Shown here one piece after another: positions 38,501 through 47,303 of a stretch of DNA of 64,000 nt (positions within the stretch are counted from its first letter, which is position 1; each line of letters opens with the position of its first letter). The stretch spans positions 1 through 64,000 of the forward strand of contig NZ_JAJVKW010000025.1 of assembly GCF_024198255.1 (NCBI RefSeq), given 5' to 3'. The notes under the pieces are model-generated. The model ran no database searches. It was not told the DNA's origin and worked only from the letters and a program-made list of their open reading frames with translations. The DNA is from Myxococcus guangdongensis. Lineage in GTDB: Bacteria; Myxococcota; Myxococcia; Myxococcales; Myxococcaceae. A program made the translations under genes and the position numbers.

Positions 38501-39324
38501 CGTCCCTGACGCCGTCCACGGGCGTGCTGCCCCAGTTGGTCATCTTCAAGCGCCTGCCGGGCGGAGGCTTCGCGCCCGCCGAGCGCTATGACGAGGACTG
38601 GTCCCAGACCGAGCTCATCGCGGTGGACCTCAACGAGGATGGCCGCTTCGACCTGGTGACGACCGAGCGCTTCACGTCCTCGAAAATCCAGCTCGGCGTG
38701 TGGCTCAACCTGGGCAGCGGGAAGTTCGCGCCCGCCACCACCGTGGAGGTGAGCGCCAACTACGAGGTGCACACCCTGGTCTCCGCGGACCTGGACCGGG
38801 ATGGCCACATGGACCTGGCCCTGCTGCGTCCCGGCAACCCCAATCTCGACAAGGGCGAGGTGTACGTCATCTGGGGCAACGGCGACGGTACCTTCACCGG
38901 ACAGACGAACTTCACCGGCGAGTACACGCACCGCGCCATGGGCCGCGCGGACCTGGATGGCCAGGGCAACGTCGGCCTGCTCATCGACCGGGGCGAGGTG
39001 GGGCTGCTCACCTACGACTCGGCCCGTCAGCCCACGCTGACGCCCAAGCACAGCCTGGGCATCCGCGCCGGCAACGGCATCCTCACCGCGGACTTCAACG
39101 CCGATGGCCTCACCGACACGTTCTCGTTCGAGCCGTTCGGGGCCAAGGTGGTGATGCAGACCGCGCCCAACACCTTCGCCCTGGGCCCCGTGCCCGGCTG
39201 GGGGCTCACCGCCCGGGACGGGCTCGTCGCCGACTGGAACGGGGATGGCCTGCCCGACCTCGCCTTCAGCAGCGTGAACGCCAAGGCGGCGACGATGGTG
39301 CACAACGTCTGCCTGCCTCCCTGA
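35524..39324 (+). CDS. Large lipoprotein with FN3 domains and FG-GAP repeats
   Basis: The 1266-residue protein has a lipoprotein signal with Cys 21 and a linker (residues about 40-92) built of Asp-Ala-Gly triplets. About five fibronectin type III domains follow (residues about 95-545, with repeats such as VTATAGIREMTVAW and YRFTVTAIYADG), then a C-terminal part with about 14 FG-GAP/VCBS-type calcium-binding loops (GDFNGDSRQDV, ADFNNDGKLDV, RDFNADGILDL, GDFDGDGRTDV and so on). The second part likely folds as one or two beta-propellers. Such proteins are surface-exposed in myxobacteria and may bind sugars, proteins or other cells; no catalytic site is visible. It stands alone, with a GGAGAG site before the ATG. 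Confidence 0.9.
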   Translation: MRAFIILLTATTLVGFSAVGCGGKSSEDTPGPGDFVPSDAGSRDAGKPEEPDAGETDAGTTPDAGAPDAGAPDAGRADAGTPDAGRSDAGTATLTAPTDVTATAGIREMTVAWGYTPSTTGSALASFEVATSPTNLKLTVGAAARTAVVTGLANGTFYRFTVTAIYADGTRQISNQSASVRTPDVPATPSWTRQKGGPQQVELEWSLPADGGRPIQGYSLTVAPGGQVINMTERSALVTGLTNGTSYVFTLVATNAVGNSPATTSSAIRAAALPNAPQNVTVTPYIRAAEVRWTAPVNNTGALITGYVVTTNPTGATQTASSTATSLYVTGLADGATYSFSVAAQNSSGVGTPATTASVTLAAPPSAPVNLTGVYHAGQLELDWQPPANDGGRPVTGYRLISTPAGVDQSLPASPTVARLSTLTPGATYTFTLTARNDAGSGPATTSAPLLLRAQPRAPTDVRVHSSTAGAVVRWNQASAPATDPVTEYVVTATPGGGSVTVPASARVATVPGLTTGTRYLFQVKARNSAGDGRPSAPAYHRHVVPLACTTPSFAPVSQFPYSPSAQFLGAGDFNGDSRQDVLVGNLFDLTVLTSGPGRSFTRLANSTSAGNILSTEPPVVADFNNDGKLDVAAILGTDSTNKTGGFTVYLGRGTGTFQAPQSTPLGTNVTTSFNCLTARDFNADGILDLFAHVHIGRTLLYRGKGDGTFQAPTTIVSADTHDCPVVADFNGDGYMDYARLDTANNRIIQANGTGTGSFRVPVYAPCTSCYGTLVAGDFDHDGAVDDLALLHPEKVRVFSPSGGTLAQVSETVFTRPFGETIRRPILTDVNGDGLQDLFWTSSPGGQLNILPGSTGPTPFSKPRSLGYNGDHYAPAAGDFDGDGRTDVAFTGYMAIQMFWGSDSLTESLQLDGAPGGLASGDFNADGFVDLAAGSNEKNAILLSLSGSPERSTSVLSPVFVPPAGKNVTGGVQDLVSVDLDGDGREDLAALTTSLTPSTGVLPQLVIFKRLPGGGFAPAERYDEDWSQTELIAVDLNEDGRFDLVTTERFTSSKIQLGVWLNLGSGKFAPATTVEVSANYEVHTLVSADLDRDGHMDLALLRPGNPNLDKGEVYVIWGNGDGTFTGQTNFTGEYTHRAMGRADLDGQGNVGLLIDRGEVGLLTYDSARQPTLTPKHSLGIRAGNGILTADFNADGLTDTFSFEPFGAKVVMQTAPNTFALGPVPGWGLTARDGLVADWNGDGLPDLAFSSVNAKAATMVHNVCLPP
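35630..35800 (+). repeat. Asp-Ala-Gly codon repeat in lipoprotein linker
   Basis: GACGCGGGC-like triplets recur about a dozen times and encode the DAG linker that follows the lipidated Cys. It is an in-frame protein linker, not a CRISPR or mobile repeat. Confidence 0.8.
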
Positions 39325-39365
39325 GCGGACCCGCCTTGACACCGGGGCGGGCCACGAACTACGGG

Positions 39366-39389
39366 TTGGTTGAGCCTCCGCTCGATAAC
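39366..39389. promoter_or_regulatory. Operator-like dyad just before TetR gene
   Basis: TTGGTTGAG-N6-CTCGATAAC has the spacing and right arm (CTCRATAAY) of the two sites at 40048-40071 and 40382-40405. It ends three bases before the ATG of the TetR gene. Confidence 0.5.
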
Positions 39390-39392
39390 CCC

Positions 39393-40010
39393 ATGGCCCG
39401 CCCCGTCTCCATCCGCGACGAAGACATCCTGGACGCCGCGCGAGAGGTGTTCCTGGCGCACGGCATCCGAGCAACCTCGGCGATGGTGGCCGAGCGGGCG
39501 CGTGTGTCGGAAGGCATCATCTTCCGGCGCTTCAAGACCAAGGAGGGGCTGTTCCGGGCCGCGCTCGACGTGGACCTCAAGACCCCTCCGGAGGTCGCCG
39601 AGCTGGTGGAGCGCGCCGGCACGGGCTCCGTCGTGGAGAACCTCCATGACACGGGCGTGGCGCTCGCCAGCCTGCTCCGGGTGAACATCCCCCTGTCGAT
39701 GCTCGCGCTGACCAATCCGGACACCCAGGACAGCCAGCAGGGCCACACACGGAACCGGCAGACACGGGAGAGCTACTTCAAGCTCATCGAGGACTATGTG
39801 CGCGAAGAGGTCGCCCTGGGCCGCCTGCGCGCCGTGGCCCCGGACGTGTTCGCCTTCGCCTACGTGGGTGGCATCAAGGACTACGTCGTGGGGAAGATCT
39901 TCCGCGCCCCCGCCCCCCAACAGCCGTCGACGCCCGCCTTCGTCCGCGCCCTCCTGGACCTGCTGCTGCACGGCGCCCATCCCCAGGCCACCACGCCCCC
40001 TCGCCGCTGA
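39393..40010 (+). CDS. TetR family regulator of the second RND operon
   Basis: The 205-residue protein has a TetR DNA-binding domain at residues 6-55 (ILDAAREVFLAHGIRATSAMVAERARVSEGIIFRRFKTKEGLFRAAL). The ligand domain shows no further recognisable signature. The start at ATG 39393 fits the conserved start, and a dyad ends three bases before it, as expected of an autoregulated gene with little or no leader. A channel-adaptor-pump operon follows on the same strand; two related dyads lie at the starts of the next two reading frames. It probably represses this operon until a pump substrate is bound. Confidence 0.88.
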   Translation: MARPVSIRDEDILDAAREVFLAHGIRATSAMVAERARVSEGIIFRRFKTKEGLFRAALDVDLKTPPEVAELVERAGTGSVVENLHDTGVALASLLRVNIPLSMLALTNPDTQDSQQGHTRNRQTRESYFKLIEDYVREEVALGRLRAVAPDVFAFAYVGGIKDYVVGKIFRAPAPQQPSTPAFVRALLDLLLHGAHPQATTPPRR

Positions 40011-40047
40011 CCCTGGCGCCCACACCCTTCCCCACTTCGCGCGCGGA

Positions 40048-40071
40048 ATTAGTGAGTATGAAATCAATAAC
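40048..40071. promoter_or_regulatory. Operator-like dyad at the start of the small ORF
   Basis: ATTAGTGAG-N6-ATCAATAAC has the same 24-bp layout as the site at 40382-40405 and the sequence AATTAGTGAGTA is identical in both. The possible GTG start at 40052 lies inside the dyad. Confidence 0.55.
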
Positions 40072-40294
40072 CGTGGGCGCCAGGTTATCTCATTGGATTC
40101 TTCCGCTGACTCCGGCCACCCTGCTGCTCGGGTTGCTGTCGCTGTCACCCCCTCTTCAGGAGGACTCACCCCCTCCACCCCAGGTCCGGCCGGAGACCGA
40201 CATCGCGGAGCGCGCCGTGGCCCGGGAGCGCACCGCCCCTCCAGGATTCCCGCTCACGTGTGGCCCGGGCGTCGTCGACGCGCCGCTGAAGTGA
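40052..40294 (+). CDS. Small membrane-anchored or secreted protein, uncertain
   Basis: From GTG 40052 an 80-residue frame reads a hydrophobic segment (residues about 13-32: LSHWILPLTPATLLLGLLSL), then a Pro-rich and charged tail. It is between TetR and the second RND operon. The first codons (GTG AGT A...) are almost the same as those at 40386, where the channel gene may begin, so this may be a leader duplication rather than a gene. No Shine-Dalgarno is visible. Coding is uncertain, and no family is recognised. Confidence 0.4.
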   Translation: MSMKSITVGARLSHWILPLTPATLLLGLLSLSPPLQEDSPPPPQVRPETDIAERAVARERTAPPGFPLTCGPGVVDAPLK

Positions 40295-40361
40295 GCCCGC
40301 CGCGGCACCTGCCCGGCCCTTCTCGCTGAACCCTCACACCACCGGCACCCGACCTCTCCGC

Positions 40362-41720
40362 ATGTCCATCTCGCGCGAGCAATTAGTGAGTAGAATCTCA
40401 ATAATCTGGTTCATCACCTGCGCCTCGGCGTTGACGCCCCGGGGCGCCCAGGCGCTCCAGCCCCTGGCCGCCTTCGTGGAGTCCTCGCGCGGGGGGAGCC
40501 CGGACAACCAGGAGGCGCGGGCGCAGGCCGAGCAGCAGCGGGCCCAGGCCCAGGTGGCGCTGGGGGGCGCGCTGCCAGGCCTCACTGCGCGCGGGACCTA
40601 CACCCGCAACCAGGCCACCGCGGAGATCAACCTGCCGTTGGACCCCAACGGTCCGCCCATCCGCGCGGTGCTCACGCCCGCCAACCAGCTCGAGGCGCTC
40701 GTCACCTTGAACGTGCCGTTGGTCGATCTGGCGCGCTTCCAGCGAATCGCCGCGGCGCGCACCAGCGCTCGCGCGGCCGAGCACCAGGCCCGGGCCACCG
40801 CGCTCCAGGTGGAGGCCGACGTGGTGCAGGGCTACTACCAGCTCGTCGCCAACGCGGCGCTGGTGCGCGCCTCACACCAGGCGCTCGACGTGGCCCGCGC
40901 CAGCCTGACGCTCACCCAGGACCGCCAGGAGGCGGGCACCGTGTCCGCGCTGGATGTGGACCGGGCCCGGGCGGAGGTCGAGCGACAGGTGCAACAGCTG
41001 GCTTCGTCGGAGCTGGCCCTGGCGCTCTCCGTCCGCGCGCTCGAGTCCCTGTCGGGCCTGGCGCCGGAGCTGGACGGGTCCACCGGGGCGACGGTGGCCA
41101 CGACGCTCCAGGACGACGACCTGCAGCCCGAACCCGGGCTGGAGACCTACCTGCCCCAGGAGCCGCGCCTGCCCTCGCTGGCGGCGGCCCACGAGAGCAC
41201 CCGCGCCGCCGAGCAGCAGGCCCGCGCCCAGCGCCTCACGCTGCTTCCCTCGCTGGCCGGCAGCATCACCGAGCGCATCAGCAACGCCGCGGGCTTCGCC
41301 GGCAACAACGCCGCCTACACCGCCAGCCTCTCGCTGAGCTGGGCGCTGGACTACACCTCGTTCGCGAACCTCCGGAGCCAGGACGCTGCGCTGGCGGTGG
41401 CCCGGGCCCGGGAGGAGCGCGCCCGGCGTGGCGTGCTCGACACCGTCCACCGCGCCTGGAGCCAGGTGGCCGCGAACATCGCGAAGAGCCGCTCCGCGCG
41501 GGCCCAGGTCCAGGCGAGCCACCGCGCCGCGGAGCTGGCGTTGGACCGCTACCAGGTGGGCGCCACCACGCAGCTCGACCTGCTCCAGGCCCAGCGGGAC
41601 GCCTTCACATCCGAGGTCTCCCGCATCCAGGCCGACGCCGAGCTGGCCAACGCGCGCGCGCAGCTGCGCATCGCGGCGGGCCAGTCCCCGTTCGCCTCCC
41701 CCAACGATTCCGACTCCTGA
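40362..41720 (+). CDS. TolC-family outer-membrane efflux channel (second system)
   Basis: The 452-residue protein is a TolC-type channel: an export signal ending near residue 30, then OEP repeats with LPGLTARGTYTRNQATAEIN near residue 72, LVTLNVPLVDLARFQRI, a long heptad-rich helix, and SLSLSWALDYTSFANLRSQDAALAVARA near residue 324. It is the first gene of a channel-adaptor-pump operon. Start choice is open: ATG 40362 or GTG 40386; the latter lies within a 24-bp dyad (40382-40405). Neither has a clear Shine-Dalgarno, so a leaderless message is possible. Confidence 0.9.
   Translation: MSISREQLVSRISIIWFITCASALTPRGAQALQPLAAFVESSRGGSPDNQEARAQAEQQRAQAQVALGGALPGLTARGTYTRNQATAEINLPLDPNGPPIRAVLTPANQLEALVTLNVPLVDLARFQRIAAARTSARAAEHQARATALQVEADVVQGYYQLVANAALVRASHQALDVARASLTLTQDRQEAGTVSALDVDRARAEVERQVQQLASSELALALSVRALESLSGLAPELDGSTGATVATTLQDDDLQPEPGLETYLPQEPRLPSLAAAHESTRAAEQQARAQRLTLLPSLAGSITERISNAAGFAGNNAAYTASLSLSWALDYTSFANLRSQDAALAVARAREERARRGVLDTVHRAWSQVAANIAKSRSARAQVQASHRAAELALDRYQVGATTQLDLLQAQRDAFTSEVSRIQADAELANARAQLRIAAGQSPFASPNDSDS
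40382..40405. promoter_or_regulatory. Operator-like dyad at the start of the channel gene
   Basis: ATTAGTGAG-N6-CTCAATAAT, an inverted repeat with one mismatch in nine, inside or at the start of the channel reading frame. It shares the arms of the dyads before the TetR gene and the small ORF. Confidence 0.6.
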
Positions 41721-41734
41721 ACCCGAGCCTCGTC

Positions 41735-42799
41735 ATGAAGATTGCCTTCTCCACCGGCAGCGCGCTCGTCCTGCTGTCGCTGTCCGCCTGCTCCCGCAAG
41801 GAGGCCGAGCCGCCCGCCGCGCCGCCTCCCGCCGCCATCCACGTCGACACCGTCACCGTGCAGGCGCACCCCATGCCCCGCACACTGCCGCTGACGGGCT
41901 CGCTCGTGTCCCACCAGAAGTCGGATGTGGCCGCGAACGCGTCCGGCGTCGTCATCAAGACCTTCGTGGAGCGCGGCGCCCTCGTGAAGGAGGGCCAGCC
42001 GCTGGTGCAGCTCGACACGCGCGGGGCGGAGCTGTCCCAGGCCGAGGCCCGGGCCAACCTGGGCAACCTCCAGGCCCAGCAGGAGCTGGCCCAGTCCCAG
42101 TGCGAGCGCTACGAGAAGCTGCTCGACAAGGGCGCCATCAGCCGAGACGAGTGGGACAAGATCGCCAGCCAATGCAAGGCGGCCGCTGGCAGCACCGAGG
42201 CCGCGCGGGCGCGGATGGAGCTGGCGAGGAAGACGCTCAGCGACGCCATCGTCCGGGCGCCTTTCGCGGGCCGGGTGGACGAGCGCCACGTCAGCGTGGG
42301 CGAGTACGTGCAGCCCAACTCCAAGGTGGCCTTCATCGTGGAACTGGACCCGCTGCGCATCCAGCTCTCCGTGGGCGAGTCGGACATCCAGCGCATCCAG
42401 GAGGGGCAGCAGGTGGCCTTCGACGTGTCGGCCTTCCCGAAGGAGCGCTTCCGGGGCACCGTGAAGTACATCGGCCCCACGGTGCGCGCCGACAGCCGCG
42501 ACCTGGTGGTGGAAGCGGTGGTGGACAACCCGGACCGCAAGCTGCGCCCCGGCATGTTCGCCACCGCGCACCTGCAGCTCCCCGAGCAGTTGCTGCCCTC
42601 CGTACCCAGGACCACGCTCGTCACCCAGGGCCAGGTCACCCGCCTCTTCGCGGTGGTGGACGGCCACATCGAGGAGCGCGTGGTGCGCACGGGCCCCGAG
42701 TGCGACGGGCTGGTGGCGGTGCTGGACGGGCTCCAGCCCGGCGAGCGCGTCGTCAATCAGCCTGGCCCCCAGGTGAAGGACGGCACGCCCGTCGACTGA
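41735..42799 (+). CDS. RND efflux adaptor (second system)
   Basis: The 354-residue adaptor has a lipobox LSAC (Cys 19) and a Pro/Ala linker, then the membrane-fusion fold: VVIKTFVERGALVKEGQPLVQLDTRGAELSQAEA near residue 72 and IVRAPFAGRVDERHVSVGEYVQPNSKVA near residue 172, followed by the beta-barrel domain. The alpha-hairpin between the lipoyl halves is short and carries two Cys residues (near residues 124 and 148), which is uncommon and might be redox-active or disulfide-bonded. It sits 14 bases after the channel gene and 42 before the pump gene. Confidence 0.92.
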   Translation: MKIAFSTGSALVLLSLSACSRKEAEPPAAPPPAAIHVDTVTVQAHPMPRTLPLTGSLVSHQKSDVAANASGVVIKTFVERGALVKEGQPLVQLDTRGAELSQAEARANLGNLQAQQELAQSQCERYEKLLDKGAISRDEWDKIASQCKAAAGSTEAARARMELARKTLSDAIVRAPFAGRVDERHVSVGEYVQPNSKVAFIVELDPLRIQLSVGESDIQRIQEGQQVAFDVSAFPKERFRGTVKYIGPTVRADSRDLVVEAVVDNPDRKLRPGMFATAHLQLPEQLLPSVPRTTLVTQGQVTRLFAVVDGHIEERVVRTGPECDGLVAVLDGLQPGERVVNQPGPQVKDGTPVD

Positions 42800-42841
42800 C
42801 GGAGCCCCCGCCTCGCCCCACTCCCTCAAGGACCTCCCGTC

Positions 42842-45800
42842 ATGCAATGGCTCGCCAATCTCGCCGTGCGCCGCGCCGTCTTCGCGTCGGTGCTGATGAT
42901 CGCCATCCTCGTCGTCGGCGTCGCCGGCTACCTCAACCTGGGCGTCGACGCCTTCCCCAAGGTCGACGTCCCCGTCATCACCATCACCACCCGCCTGGAC
43001 GGCGCCTCGCCCGAGGTCGTCGAGTCGGAGCTCACCGAGAAGATAGAGCAGTCGGTCAACACCATCTCCGGCATCGACGAGCTGCGCTCGGTCTCCAGTG
43101 ACGGCGTCAGCCAGGTCACCCTCGGCTTCACGCTGGAGAAGGACATCGACGTGGCGGCGCAGGACGTGCGCGACCACGTGGCGGTGGTGCTCAACGAGTT
43201 GCCGAGCGGCGTGGACCCGCCCGTCATCACCAAGATGGACCCGGATGCCTCCCCCATCCTCTACATCGCGCTGAAGGGCCCCCCGGGCGCCACGCCGCGG
43301 GAGGTCACGGAGCTGGCCGACAAGCGCCTCCAGCGCGAAATCGAGAACGTCTCCGGCGTGGGGGAGGTGAACATCGTCGGTGGGCGGGAGCGCCAGGTGA
43401 GCGTGTGGCTGGAGAGCGAGGCCCTGCGCGCGCACGGCATCACCGCGGCGGACGTGCAGCGGGCGCTGGCGAGCCAGAACCTGGAGGCCCCTGGAGGCAC
43501 GCTCCAGACGGGCCCTCGGGACTTGAGCCTGCGCGTGCAGGGCCGGGTGGAGTCCATCGAGGCGCTCGGCCGCATCGTCATCCGCAACGTGGAGGGGCGC
43601 CCCCTGCGCATCCAGGACGTGGCGCGCGTGGAGGACGGCGAGGTGGAGGAGCAGACGGCGGCGCGGTTGGATGGCGCGCCCACCGTGGTGCTGACGGTGC
43701 GCAAGCAGAGCGGCGAGAACACGGTGGCGGTGGTGAAGTCCGTGCGCGAGCGGCTGGGGCGGGCACAGGCGCTGTTGCCCCAGGGCTACACGATGGAGGT
43801 GGTGCGCGACACGTCTGGCACCATCCAGACGCAGGTCCACTCGGTCATCGAGCACCTGATTCTCGGCGCGCTGTTCTCCGCGCTCGTCGTGCTGTTGTTC
43901 CTGGGCAACGTGCGCTCCACCCTCATCGCCGCGCTGGCCATCCCCATCTCCATCATCGGCACCTTCGCGCTGATGTGGCTGCAGGGCTTCACGCTCAACA
44001 TCATCACCCTGCTGGCCCTGGCGCTGGCGGTGGGAATCGTCATCGACGACGCCATCGTCGTGCTGGAGAACATCGTCCGCTTCATCGAGGAGAAGAAACT
44101 CAAGCCCTTCCCGGCCGCCATCCTCGCCACGCGGGACATCGGCCTCGCGGTGCTCGCCACCACGCTCAGCCTGATGGCGGTGTTCGTGCCCGTGGCGTTC
44201 ATGACGGGCATCGTCGGGCGGTTCCTCAAGGGCTTCGGCCTCACCATGGCGTATGCCATCGGGGTGTCGCTCATCGTGTCCTTCACCCTGACGCCCATGC
44301 TGGCGGCCCGGTGGCTGGACCCTGCCCCCGAGAGCGGGCACTCGAAGAAGACGGTGCTCCAGAAGCTGGTGGACCGCTTCTACCTGCCCATCGAGAACGC
44401 CTACATGGCCATGCTGCGCTACGTGATGCGCCACCGCTGGCTCGTCGTCGTCGTGTGCGTGGCGACGCTCGGCTCCTGCGTGCCGCTCTTCAAGGCCGTG
44501 CCCGTCAGCTTCCAGCCGCCCAACGACGAGGCGAACTTCGCCATCAACCTGCGCACGCCCGAGGGCACGAGCCTCCAGGCCACGCTCATCGCCGCCGAGC
44601 GCATCGCCCGCGAGACGCGCCGCATCCCCGGCGTGGCCCACACCCTGACCACCATCGGCAACAACGCCCAGCGCACGCCCAACGTGGCCAACATCTACGT
44701 GCGACTGGTGGACCCCGTCGAGCGAGCGCAGAGCCAGCAGGAGCTGGCCGCGCGGGTGCGGCGGGACATCGTCTCCAAGCAGCCCCCGGGGCTGCGCATC
44801 GACATCTCCGACGTGAGCGCCTTCTCGGGGGGCTCGAACAAGTCGGTGCAGTACATCCTCAACGGGCCGGACCTGGAGAAGCTGGGCGAGTACAGCCAGC
44901 GCATCGTGGAGCAGCTGCGCGAGTTCCCCAGCGCCGCGGACGTGGACTCCAGCATGGTGCTGGGCAAGCCCGAGGTCCGGGTGCACGTGCTGCGCGACAA
45001 GGCGGCGGACCTGGGCGTCCAGGTGTCGGACATCTCCAACACCCTGCGGCTCCTGGTGGGAGGCATGGACGCGTCCACCTTCCAGGACGGCGGCGAGGAC
45101 TACGAGGTGCGGCTGCGCGCCCAGGCCTCGGACCGCGACGACGTGGAGCGGCTGCTGCTGATGACGGTGCCGTCCAGTCGGCTGGGCGCGGTGCCGCTGC
45201 GTGACGTGGTGGAGCTGACACAGCAGACGGGCCCGTCCGAAATCGCCCGGCTCAACCGCCGTCGGCAGGTGACGGTGTCCGCCAACGTGCAGCCCGGCGT
45301 GGGACAGAGCGTGGTGACCCGGCGCCTGGAGGAGATCGTCCAGACGCTGGAGCTGCCGGCGGGCTACTCGGCGGCGGCCACGGGCCAGTCGCGCGAGATG
45401 GGGCGCACGATGACGTCGTTCCTCACCGCCTTCGCCCTGTCGTTCATCTTCATGTACCTCATCCTGGCGGCGCAGTTCGAGAGCTGGCTGCACCCGTTCA
45501 CCATCCTCTTCTGCCTGCCGCTCACCATGCCGTTCGCCCTGCTGTCGCTGCTCATCTTCGGGCAGACCTTCAACCTGCAGTCCGCGCTGGGCCTGCTGGT
45601 GCTCTTCGGCGTGGTGAAGAAGAACTCCATCCTCCAGGTGGACCACACCAACAACCTGCGCGCCCAGGGGATGCCCCGGGCCGAGGCCATCCTCGAGGCC
45701 AACCGGGACAGATTGCGGCCCATCCTGATGACGACCATCGCCTTCGTCGCGGGCATGGTGCCGCTCGTCACCTCCCAGGGCATCGGCGCGGGCATCAACC

Positions 45801-46027
45801 GCGCCACCGCGGGCATCGTGGTGGGAGGCCAGACCCTCTCGCTGCTGCTCACCCTGCTGGCCACGCCGGTCCTCTACTCGCTGCTCGACGACGCGGTGGA
45901 GTGGTGGCGCGCGCGGCGGTCCGGGCGCGGCGCCGTGGACCGGGGGGAGCAGGAGCTGGCCCATCTGGAGCGGCGGGAGCACGCGGCCCCAGCACATCCC
46001 GTGGCCTCGGCCTCCCGTGGCACCTGA
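42842..46027 (+). CDS. RND efflux pump (second system)
   Basis: The 1061-residue inner-membrane pump matches the RND family: the start [39 protein letters not shown], the proton-relay [22 protein letters not shown] near residue 402, the conserved [23 protein letters not shown] and TM10-12 near residues 870-1030 ([19 protein letters not shown]). Two large periplasmic loops lie between TM1-2 and TM7-8. Length and spacing are normal. It completes a channel-adaptor-pump operon following a TetR gene. It is a different RND lineage from the pump at 8401-11514 (for example the TM4 loop sequence differs), so it is probably not a recent duplicate. Confidence 0.95.
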
Positions 46028-46119
46028 GACGCGGAGCGGGATTGAACCTCGCGGGCCCTGGCTCGCGCTCGAGCACACCTTGGATGTCGGAAAGCACCTG
46101 AGCCCGGAGACCCTCCACC

Positions 46120-46314
46120 ATGTTCGTATTCTCGCTGCTCATGCTGTTGCCGCAGGGGACACCTCAGGACAAGAAGCCTCGCCGGGGCGCCGGGCCTTCG
46201 CCCCGCGGCACCTCGACGCGAGGCGCGACCTCGAAGAGGCGGGGCGCGGCGACGACGAGGGCGCCCCACCCGCCGACCCGACCCAAGGCGCATGGGGGGC
46301 GCGTCGGCCGATGA
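46120..46314 (+). CDS. Small basic protein coupled to the beta-barrel gene, uncertain
   Basis: A 64-residue frame starts at ATG 46120 with a hydrophobic start (FVFSLLMLLPQG) followed by a very basic Arg/Gly/Pro tail. Its TGA overlaps the ATG of the next gene (ATGA at 46311), so translational coupling is possible. Composition is low-complexity and no family is recognised. It may be a real leader peptide gene or a chance frame. Confidence 0.4.
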   Translation: MFVFSLLMLLPQGTPQDKKPRRGAGPSPRGTSTRGATSKRRGAATTRAPHPPTRPKAHGGRVGR

Positions 46315-47303
46315 GCTTCGACGCCTCCCGAGCCCTCCCCGCCAGGGGCCTGCTCCTCTTCGCCCTGCTGGTGACGAGCACCGCGAGCGCGCAGACCTCC
46401 GACGACCGTGCCTATGTGGGCTTCACCACCAAGCGGGGCACGTCCATCGGCTCACATGGCGTGAAGCTGGAAGAGCAGCTCCAACTGGAGCTGCGTCCGA
46501 TGCTGCCGTCCTTTTCGCTGGGACACGCGCGGCTCGTCCCCATCCTGGGCTTCGAGACCCGCTGGATGGGGATGCAGCCACGGACACCGCCCCTCATGGC
46601 GCAGGAGGACCAGATGCATGGGGCGCTCCATCGCTTCCAGCTCGGGCTCACCCTGGTGCAACCGCTCGCGCCGCGCTGGCTGCTGATGGTGGGTGCGACC
46701 GGGAGCGCGCGCACGGACTTCTCGATGGACTTCGACTTCGAGAAGGACACGTCCTGGGCGGCCTTCGTCATGGCGAACTATTTCCTCGGCGGGGACCCGA
46801 GGATGACGCTCACGCTGGGGGCCGTCGCCCAGTATCCGTTCGAACAGGTTCCAATCTTCCCGCTGGTGGGCTTCGCCTACCGCAAGGACCCGTTCATCCT
46901 GGAGCTGGGCGTGCCGCGCGCCACCCTGCTCATGAAGTGGGGGAGCCGGCTGGAGCTGGGGTTCACCGGCGCCTTCGAGCGGCAGATCTTCCGCATCGAC
47001 CTCCCGGGCGACCTCGAGCAGCTGGGCGCCCACTATGCCCAGGAGACCAGCCTGCGCTTCGGCCCGACGATGAACGTGCGGCTGGGCTCCGGACCGCTCT
47101 GGCTCAGCTCCTCCGTCGGCCTCGACTTCATGAATGACTACGCGCTGCTCGACCGGGACCGAGAGCGCATCGCGCCCGACATCGCCGCGCCGACGAAGCC
47201 CGCGCCCTACCTGCGCTTCCAGGTGAGCTGGCGGCCTCCCCACCGCCCCGCGGCGGATGCGCGCCCGGCCGGGGTGCCCGCTCCCGGGGTCGAGAAGCGT
47301 TGA
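46311..47303 (+). CDS. Outer-membrane beta-barrel protein, DUF6268-like
   Basis: The 330-residue protein has a signal peptide ending SASAQ or TASAQ near residue 24, then alternating hydrophobic beta-strand segments (RAYVGFTTKRGTSIGSHGVKL, MMVGATGSARTDF, YFLGGDPRMTLTLGAVAQYP, ELGFTGAFERQIFRIDLPG). It ends with the strand-like PAPYLRFQVSW and a Pro-rich tail. Features fit outer-membrane barrel families such as DUF6268; the function is unknown. It follows the second RND operon by 283 bases and converges on the next gene with 19 bases between stops. Confidence 0.75.
   Translation: MSFDASRALPARGLLLFALLVTSTASAQTSDDRAYVGFTTKRGTSIGSHGVKLEEQLQLELRPMLPSFSLGHARLVPILGFETRWMGMQPRTPPLMAQEDQMHGALHRFQLGLTLVQPLAPRWLLMVGATGSARTDFSMDFDFEKDTSWAAFVMANYFLGGDPRMTLTLGAVAQYPFEQVPIFPLVGFAYRKDPFILELGVPRATLLMKWGSRLELGFTGAFERQIFRIDLPGDLEQLGAHYAQETSLRFGPTMNVRLGSGPLWLSSSVGLDFMNDYALLDRDRERIAPDIAAPTKPAPYLRFQVSWRPPHRPAADARPAGVPAPGVEKR

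Follow-up and report, generated by a model that had tools for sequence, protein, structure and literature searches.

Three related dyads at a tetR–efflux pump locus (S1, S2 and S3; Table 1) are very probably operators of the adjacent TetR-family repressor, as judged from their sequence and conservation. It is likely that this repressor controls its own gene at S1 and blocks transcription of the channel, adaptor and permease genes at S2 and S3. The window, by which we mean the whole 64,000-nucleotide stretch of DNA that was analysed, contains a TetR_N regulator, a palindrome at the regulator's own promoter and linked efflux genes carrying the same dyad, which are three hallmarks of a TetR-autoregulated efflux operon. 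The system as a whole is best seen as a local TetR circuit of the ordinary, autoregulatory type, whose downstream operators are unusually placed.

Table 1. Features of the tetR–efflux pump locus, in window coordinates.
Feature	Position	Strand	Basis or remark
-35 element TTGACA, tetR promoter	39336-39341	+	31 nt before S1 dyad
-10-like element TACGGG, tetR promoter	39360-39365	+	Weak; 18 nt from the -35 element and one base before S1
Predicted operator S1, TGGTTGAGCCTCCGCTCGATAA	39367-39388	.	PWM 17.5 bits; counterpart equally far before tetR in orthologues
TetR-family repressor gene (tetR), 205 aa	39393-40010	+	Pfam TetR_N (PF00440), E 2.6e-13
Predicted operator S2, TTAGTGAGTATGAAATCAATAA, includes GTG 40052	40049-40070	.	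PWM 34.7 bits; match in M. eversor (L035)
Small ORF starting within S2	40052-40294	+	No convincing homologue; weak GC3
TolC-like outer-membrane channel gene (OEP)	40362-41720	+	Pfam OEP, E 6.4e-44; ATG 40362 preferred to GTG 40386
Predicted operator S3, TTAGTGAGTAGAATCTCAATAA, includes GTG 40386	40383-40404	.	PWM 32.4 bits; counterparts at channel starts
Periplasmic adaptor of efflux pump	41735-42799	+	NCBIfam RND_mfp, above cut-off
RND efflux permease	42842-46027	+	Pfam ACR_tran, E 6e-283
Exported protein gene, last of presumed operon	46311-47303	+	Weak DUF6268 match; homologue after RND gene in M. dinghuensis

Sequence and specificity of the dyads

S1 has the structure TGGTTGAG-CCTCCG-CTCGATAA and ends 4 nt upstream of the tetR ATG, while S2 reads TTAGTGAG-TATGAA-ATCAATAA and S3 reads TTAGTGAG-TAGAAT-CTCAATAA. 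The general form of the arms was TTAnTGAG-N6-CTCAATAA, and the GAG/CTC core given in a preliminary description of this DNA is the inner part of this longer palindrome. The arm pattern CTCRATAAY, also given there, holds for S1 and S3 but not for S2, whose right arm is ATCAATAAC, with ATC in place of CTC. Two further claims, that S2 and S3 share an exact sequence and that a possible start codon is placed alike in each, were both confirmed. The shared sequence AATTAGTGAGTA occurs at 40047 and 40381, and no other exact 12-mer direct repeat in the window has copies at most 400 bp apart and at least 8 of 12 positions A/T. GTG 40052 and GTG 40386 occupy dyad positions 4-6 of S2 and S3, respectively.

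Specificity was assessed with a palindrome position weight matrix (PWM) trained on orthologous loci alone, with the window held out. S2, S3 and S1 took ranks 1–3 over the 64 kb window, the fourth site scored 11.6 bits, and the top score among 20 simulated 64 kb windows was 12.5. The three related dyads that had been described therefore exist, and stand far above chance by both PWM score and simulation. On leave-one-out analysis, the equivalent sites ranked first in all 6 of 6 test loci (12 kb each). Across the 11.2 Mb genome, the arm pattern as literally given in the preliminary description was found at S1, at S3 and at one further place. When up to 2 mismatches were allowed, TTARTGAG-N7-TCAATAA matched only S2, S3 and one site before another TetR-family gene in the same 11.2 Mb, where a reversed-pattern control gave 0 matches. 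A near-perfect palindrome with the same half-site, TTAGTGAGTGACCAGTCACTAA, lies at C3:161616-161637 of the window's own genome (L033), 10-25 nt before a second TetR-family gene. Among the 2072 codons of the tetR, channel, adaptor and permease genes, the sole TTA is channel codon 8, inside S3.

Conservation of the dyads with the regulator gene

The search for TetR homologues took in a genome collection as well as the family, class and phylum to which the window belongs; orthologues in other myxobacteria were 33-70% identical. Matches of the window's TetR to the MtrR, AcrR and BetI equivalogs all fell far under the cut-off. Of the loci examined that have a close TetR homologue, nearly all carry a dyad just upstream of the tetR ATG, and most myxobacterial loci of the pump and NmrA clades carry a second one 40-65 bp past the tetR stop, also where a different gene comes next. 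In Corallococcus (L034, L036), M. eversor (L035), M. dinghuensis (L037), Hyalangium (L038), Citreicoccus (L039, L097, L099) and the more distant L004, the dyads lie 26-28 nt before the tetR ATG and 40-65 nt past its stop. M. eversor has a 22-mer identical to S2 at the equivalent place, and M. dinghuensis, like the window, has two dyads past the tetR stop, 121 bp apart. Counterparts of S3 were found at the channel start in L037, L038, L039, L097, L099 and L004. Among more distant homologues, L048, L104, L107, L109 and L110 have a similar dyad directly upstream of tetR alone, and no clear dyad was found at the expected places in L008/L105 and L106. Since the sites travel with the regulator gene, conserved in both position and sequence, they are read as operators of the neighbouring TetR, as the preliminary description had supposed.

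A paralogous TetR clade precedes an NmrA-like gene (L041-L043, L005-L007, L100, L101), and its dyads have 4, not 8, bases between TGA and TCA. In the five members that were aligned or translated, the recognition-helix region reads SPGILFKRF, not SEGIIFRRF. The S2 equivalent in this clade is non-coding and lies ahead of a well-formed ribosome site.

L034-L036 lack the channel, adaptor and permease genes at this locus, and no channel homologue was found in these three genomes at 1e-40; S2 is nevertheless retained. It lies there upstream of the homologue of the exported protein gene or of the small ORF preceding that gene, the homologue following directly in L034 and L035. Retention of S2 without the channel indicates selection on the DNA, not on the channel N-terminus. 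Relative to window positions 40011-46310, these loci, from three species, have no pump between S2 and the operon's last gene, which suggests either loss or insertion of the pump as one block. A small ORF (46120-46314) together with the exported protein gene follows the pump here and in M. dinghuensis, but neither Hyalangium nor Citreicoccus has them in that place. Elsewhere in the order, the channel paralogues of other families (L127-L141) belong to other pumps without this TetR, the sole exception being a weak reverse-strand TetR match at L133, and were uninformative on the operator.

The small ORF that starts within S2 is unlikely to be a gene. A search of 60 relatives gave no convincing homologue (best E 0.005, in other species), its third-position GC is 0.75 against 0.92-0.97 in its neighbours, and in M. 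dinghuensis both post-tetR sites are present while the ORF is absent. Comparison with relatives thus bore out conservation of the dyads but not of this ORF, and its reading as a real gene is not supported. S2 and S3 themselves look duplicated, in a manner that would suit a copied channel start. Beyond the operator, both regions have TCGCGCG-nnn-AATTA in common, and the frame of the following ORF encodes V-S-x-x-S-I (MSxxSI) in both. The common upstream stretch and reading frame fit the proposed origin by copying, although the two operators may have converged instead. The same features might be taken to mean that what is conserved in S2 and S3 is coding sequence, or a duplicated gene start, and not an operator at all. 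This is very improbable, given that S2 is kept before unrelated genes, is non-coding in the NmrA clade and, like S3, is palindromic with the arms of S1.

Promoters, the channel start and mode of action

S1 adjoins a sigma-70-like tetR promoter. The distance from TTGACA to the S1 dyad is the same in L034, L036 and L037 as in the window, and is 24 nt in L035, where the -10 falls inside the S1-like dyad. At the -10 place the best hexamers were TATTGA in L034, TAACAA in L036 and TAAGGA in L037; the window's own -10 is poor, and S1 is the weakest of the three dyads. Two scans recognised no sigma-70 promoter at S2 or S3 within 39200-40500, and none consistent across orthologues. Nor was any -10-like element present 7-12 nt before GTG 40052 or GTG 40386.

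For the channel gene, the preliminary description had offered ATG 40362 as the alternative start, and it is this alternative that the comparison favours. Six loci (the window, L037, L038, L004, L044 and L046) have an ATG in frame with the start-like dyad codon and 21-27 nt upstream of it. Shine-Dalgarno duplex energies for ATG 40362 and GTG 40386 were mostly no better than at random positions in this GC-rich DNA, so ribosome-site strength was not decisive. On sequence grounds we lean towards ATG 40362 as the start in the window, and the upstream ATG is likely to be ancestral for the channel gene. With that start S3 would fall within the channel ORF, at codons 8-15, and the recurrence of the ATG in six channel loci makes this the most likely arrangement.

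Citreicoccus differs. Two species have ACG at exactly -24 from the dyad codon. In L099 the interval from the tetR stop to the dyad holds no in-frame start codon, and in L097 it holds only a GTG right after the stop. Identity between the pair is 100% over the dyad and the next 60 nt, compared with 79% over the 24 nt before the ATG. The channel start has probably moved into the dyad in these species, where a start codon supplied by the half-site appears to be forced. As a general account, in which the left half-site of the TetR operator is the channel start codon and a single 22-bp sequence, duplicated in the Myxococcus lineage, would be both repressor site and translation initiation region, this is unlikely.

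The observations on Citreicoccus (ACG at -24, the lack of an in-frame start upstream in L099, and full identity over the dyad and the next 60 nt) could also be read in favour of leaderless messages. Transcription would then begin at GTG 40052 and GTG 40386, or at an equivalent ATG or TTG, with the operator covering both +1 and the start codon. The start-like codon does hold the same dyad position in S2 and S3 of the window and in L037, L039 and L004; however, this is expected from the operator alone, since NTG belongs to the half-site TTAnTGAG. The upstream in-frame ATG of the six channel loci also argues against it. Because S2 and S3 have neither a recognisable promoter nor a -10-like element at the distance needed, leaderless transcription, as put forward in the preliminary description, is unsupported and we consider it distinctly improbable.

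We infer instead that a TetR dimer binds S1, overlapping the start region of the tetR promoter (TTGACA-N18-TACGGG followed by the dyad), and would thereby repress tetR by occlusion. Downstream of tetR, S2 and S3 lie at the 5' end of the first transcribed pump gene or genes, where binding of the same TetR may block transcription into the channel, adaptor and permease genes. The block could be occlusion of a promoter unrecognisable by sequence, or an elongation roadblock met by polymerase that reads through from the tetR promoter. TetR would presumably be released by a ligand of the pump.

The roadblock is a sub-case of this explanation and is considered apart for its mode. The tetR and pump genes would be read as one operon from the promoter at S1, with TetR at S2 and S3 halting RNA polymerase at the first codons of the pump. 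The gap between tetR and the channel gene is only about 40-65 nt in L004, L038, L039 and L097; the two genes seem contiguous in L104, which has the upstream dyad only; and the sole recognisable promoter is that at S1. A documented precedent is the Kpn2I controller protein, which acts as a roadblock by binding within a coding region (PMC6237814). The present arrangement would resemble that system in having a binding site within coding sequence and a possible block to elongation, but the Kpn2I controller is not a TetR protein. Against the roadblock, the promoter scans at S2 and S3 covered sigma-70-like promoters alone, and in the NmrA-linked clade, where S2 precedes a well-formed ribosome site, ordinary promoter occlusion is equally plausible. 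Elongation roadblock is put forward tentatively as the way in which S2 and S3 would act.

Relation to known systems

The locus resembles those of RND-pump repressors of the MtrR, AcrR, SmeT and MexZ type in having a TetR_N helix-turn-helix regulator, a palindrome at the regulator promoter and neighbouring channel, adaptor and permease genes. Those systems have one operator in a divergent intergenic region, whereas here the regulator and pump are co-directional and one or two extra operators lie at the first codons of the pump. The lac O2 and gal OI sites are auxiliary operators that lie within the first gene, and S2 and S3 would be similar in that a second operator occurs in the early coding region of a repressed operon. 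Unlike in those systems, there is no evidence for looping here, and tetramerisation like that of LacI is not known for TetR dimers.

Literature searches returned nothing relevant for the half-site TTAGTGAGT with TetR or for leaderless messages in Myxococcus xanthus. The operator is clear and absent from the literature searched, and this TetR–pump pair has apparently not been described in myxobacteria. The analysis provides a specific, conserved predicted operator for such a pair, and a case, open to experiment, in which a repressor site would lie within the first codons of the gene that it controls. It also advises caution in annotation, as the GTG starts at this locus arise in part from the operator half-site itself.
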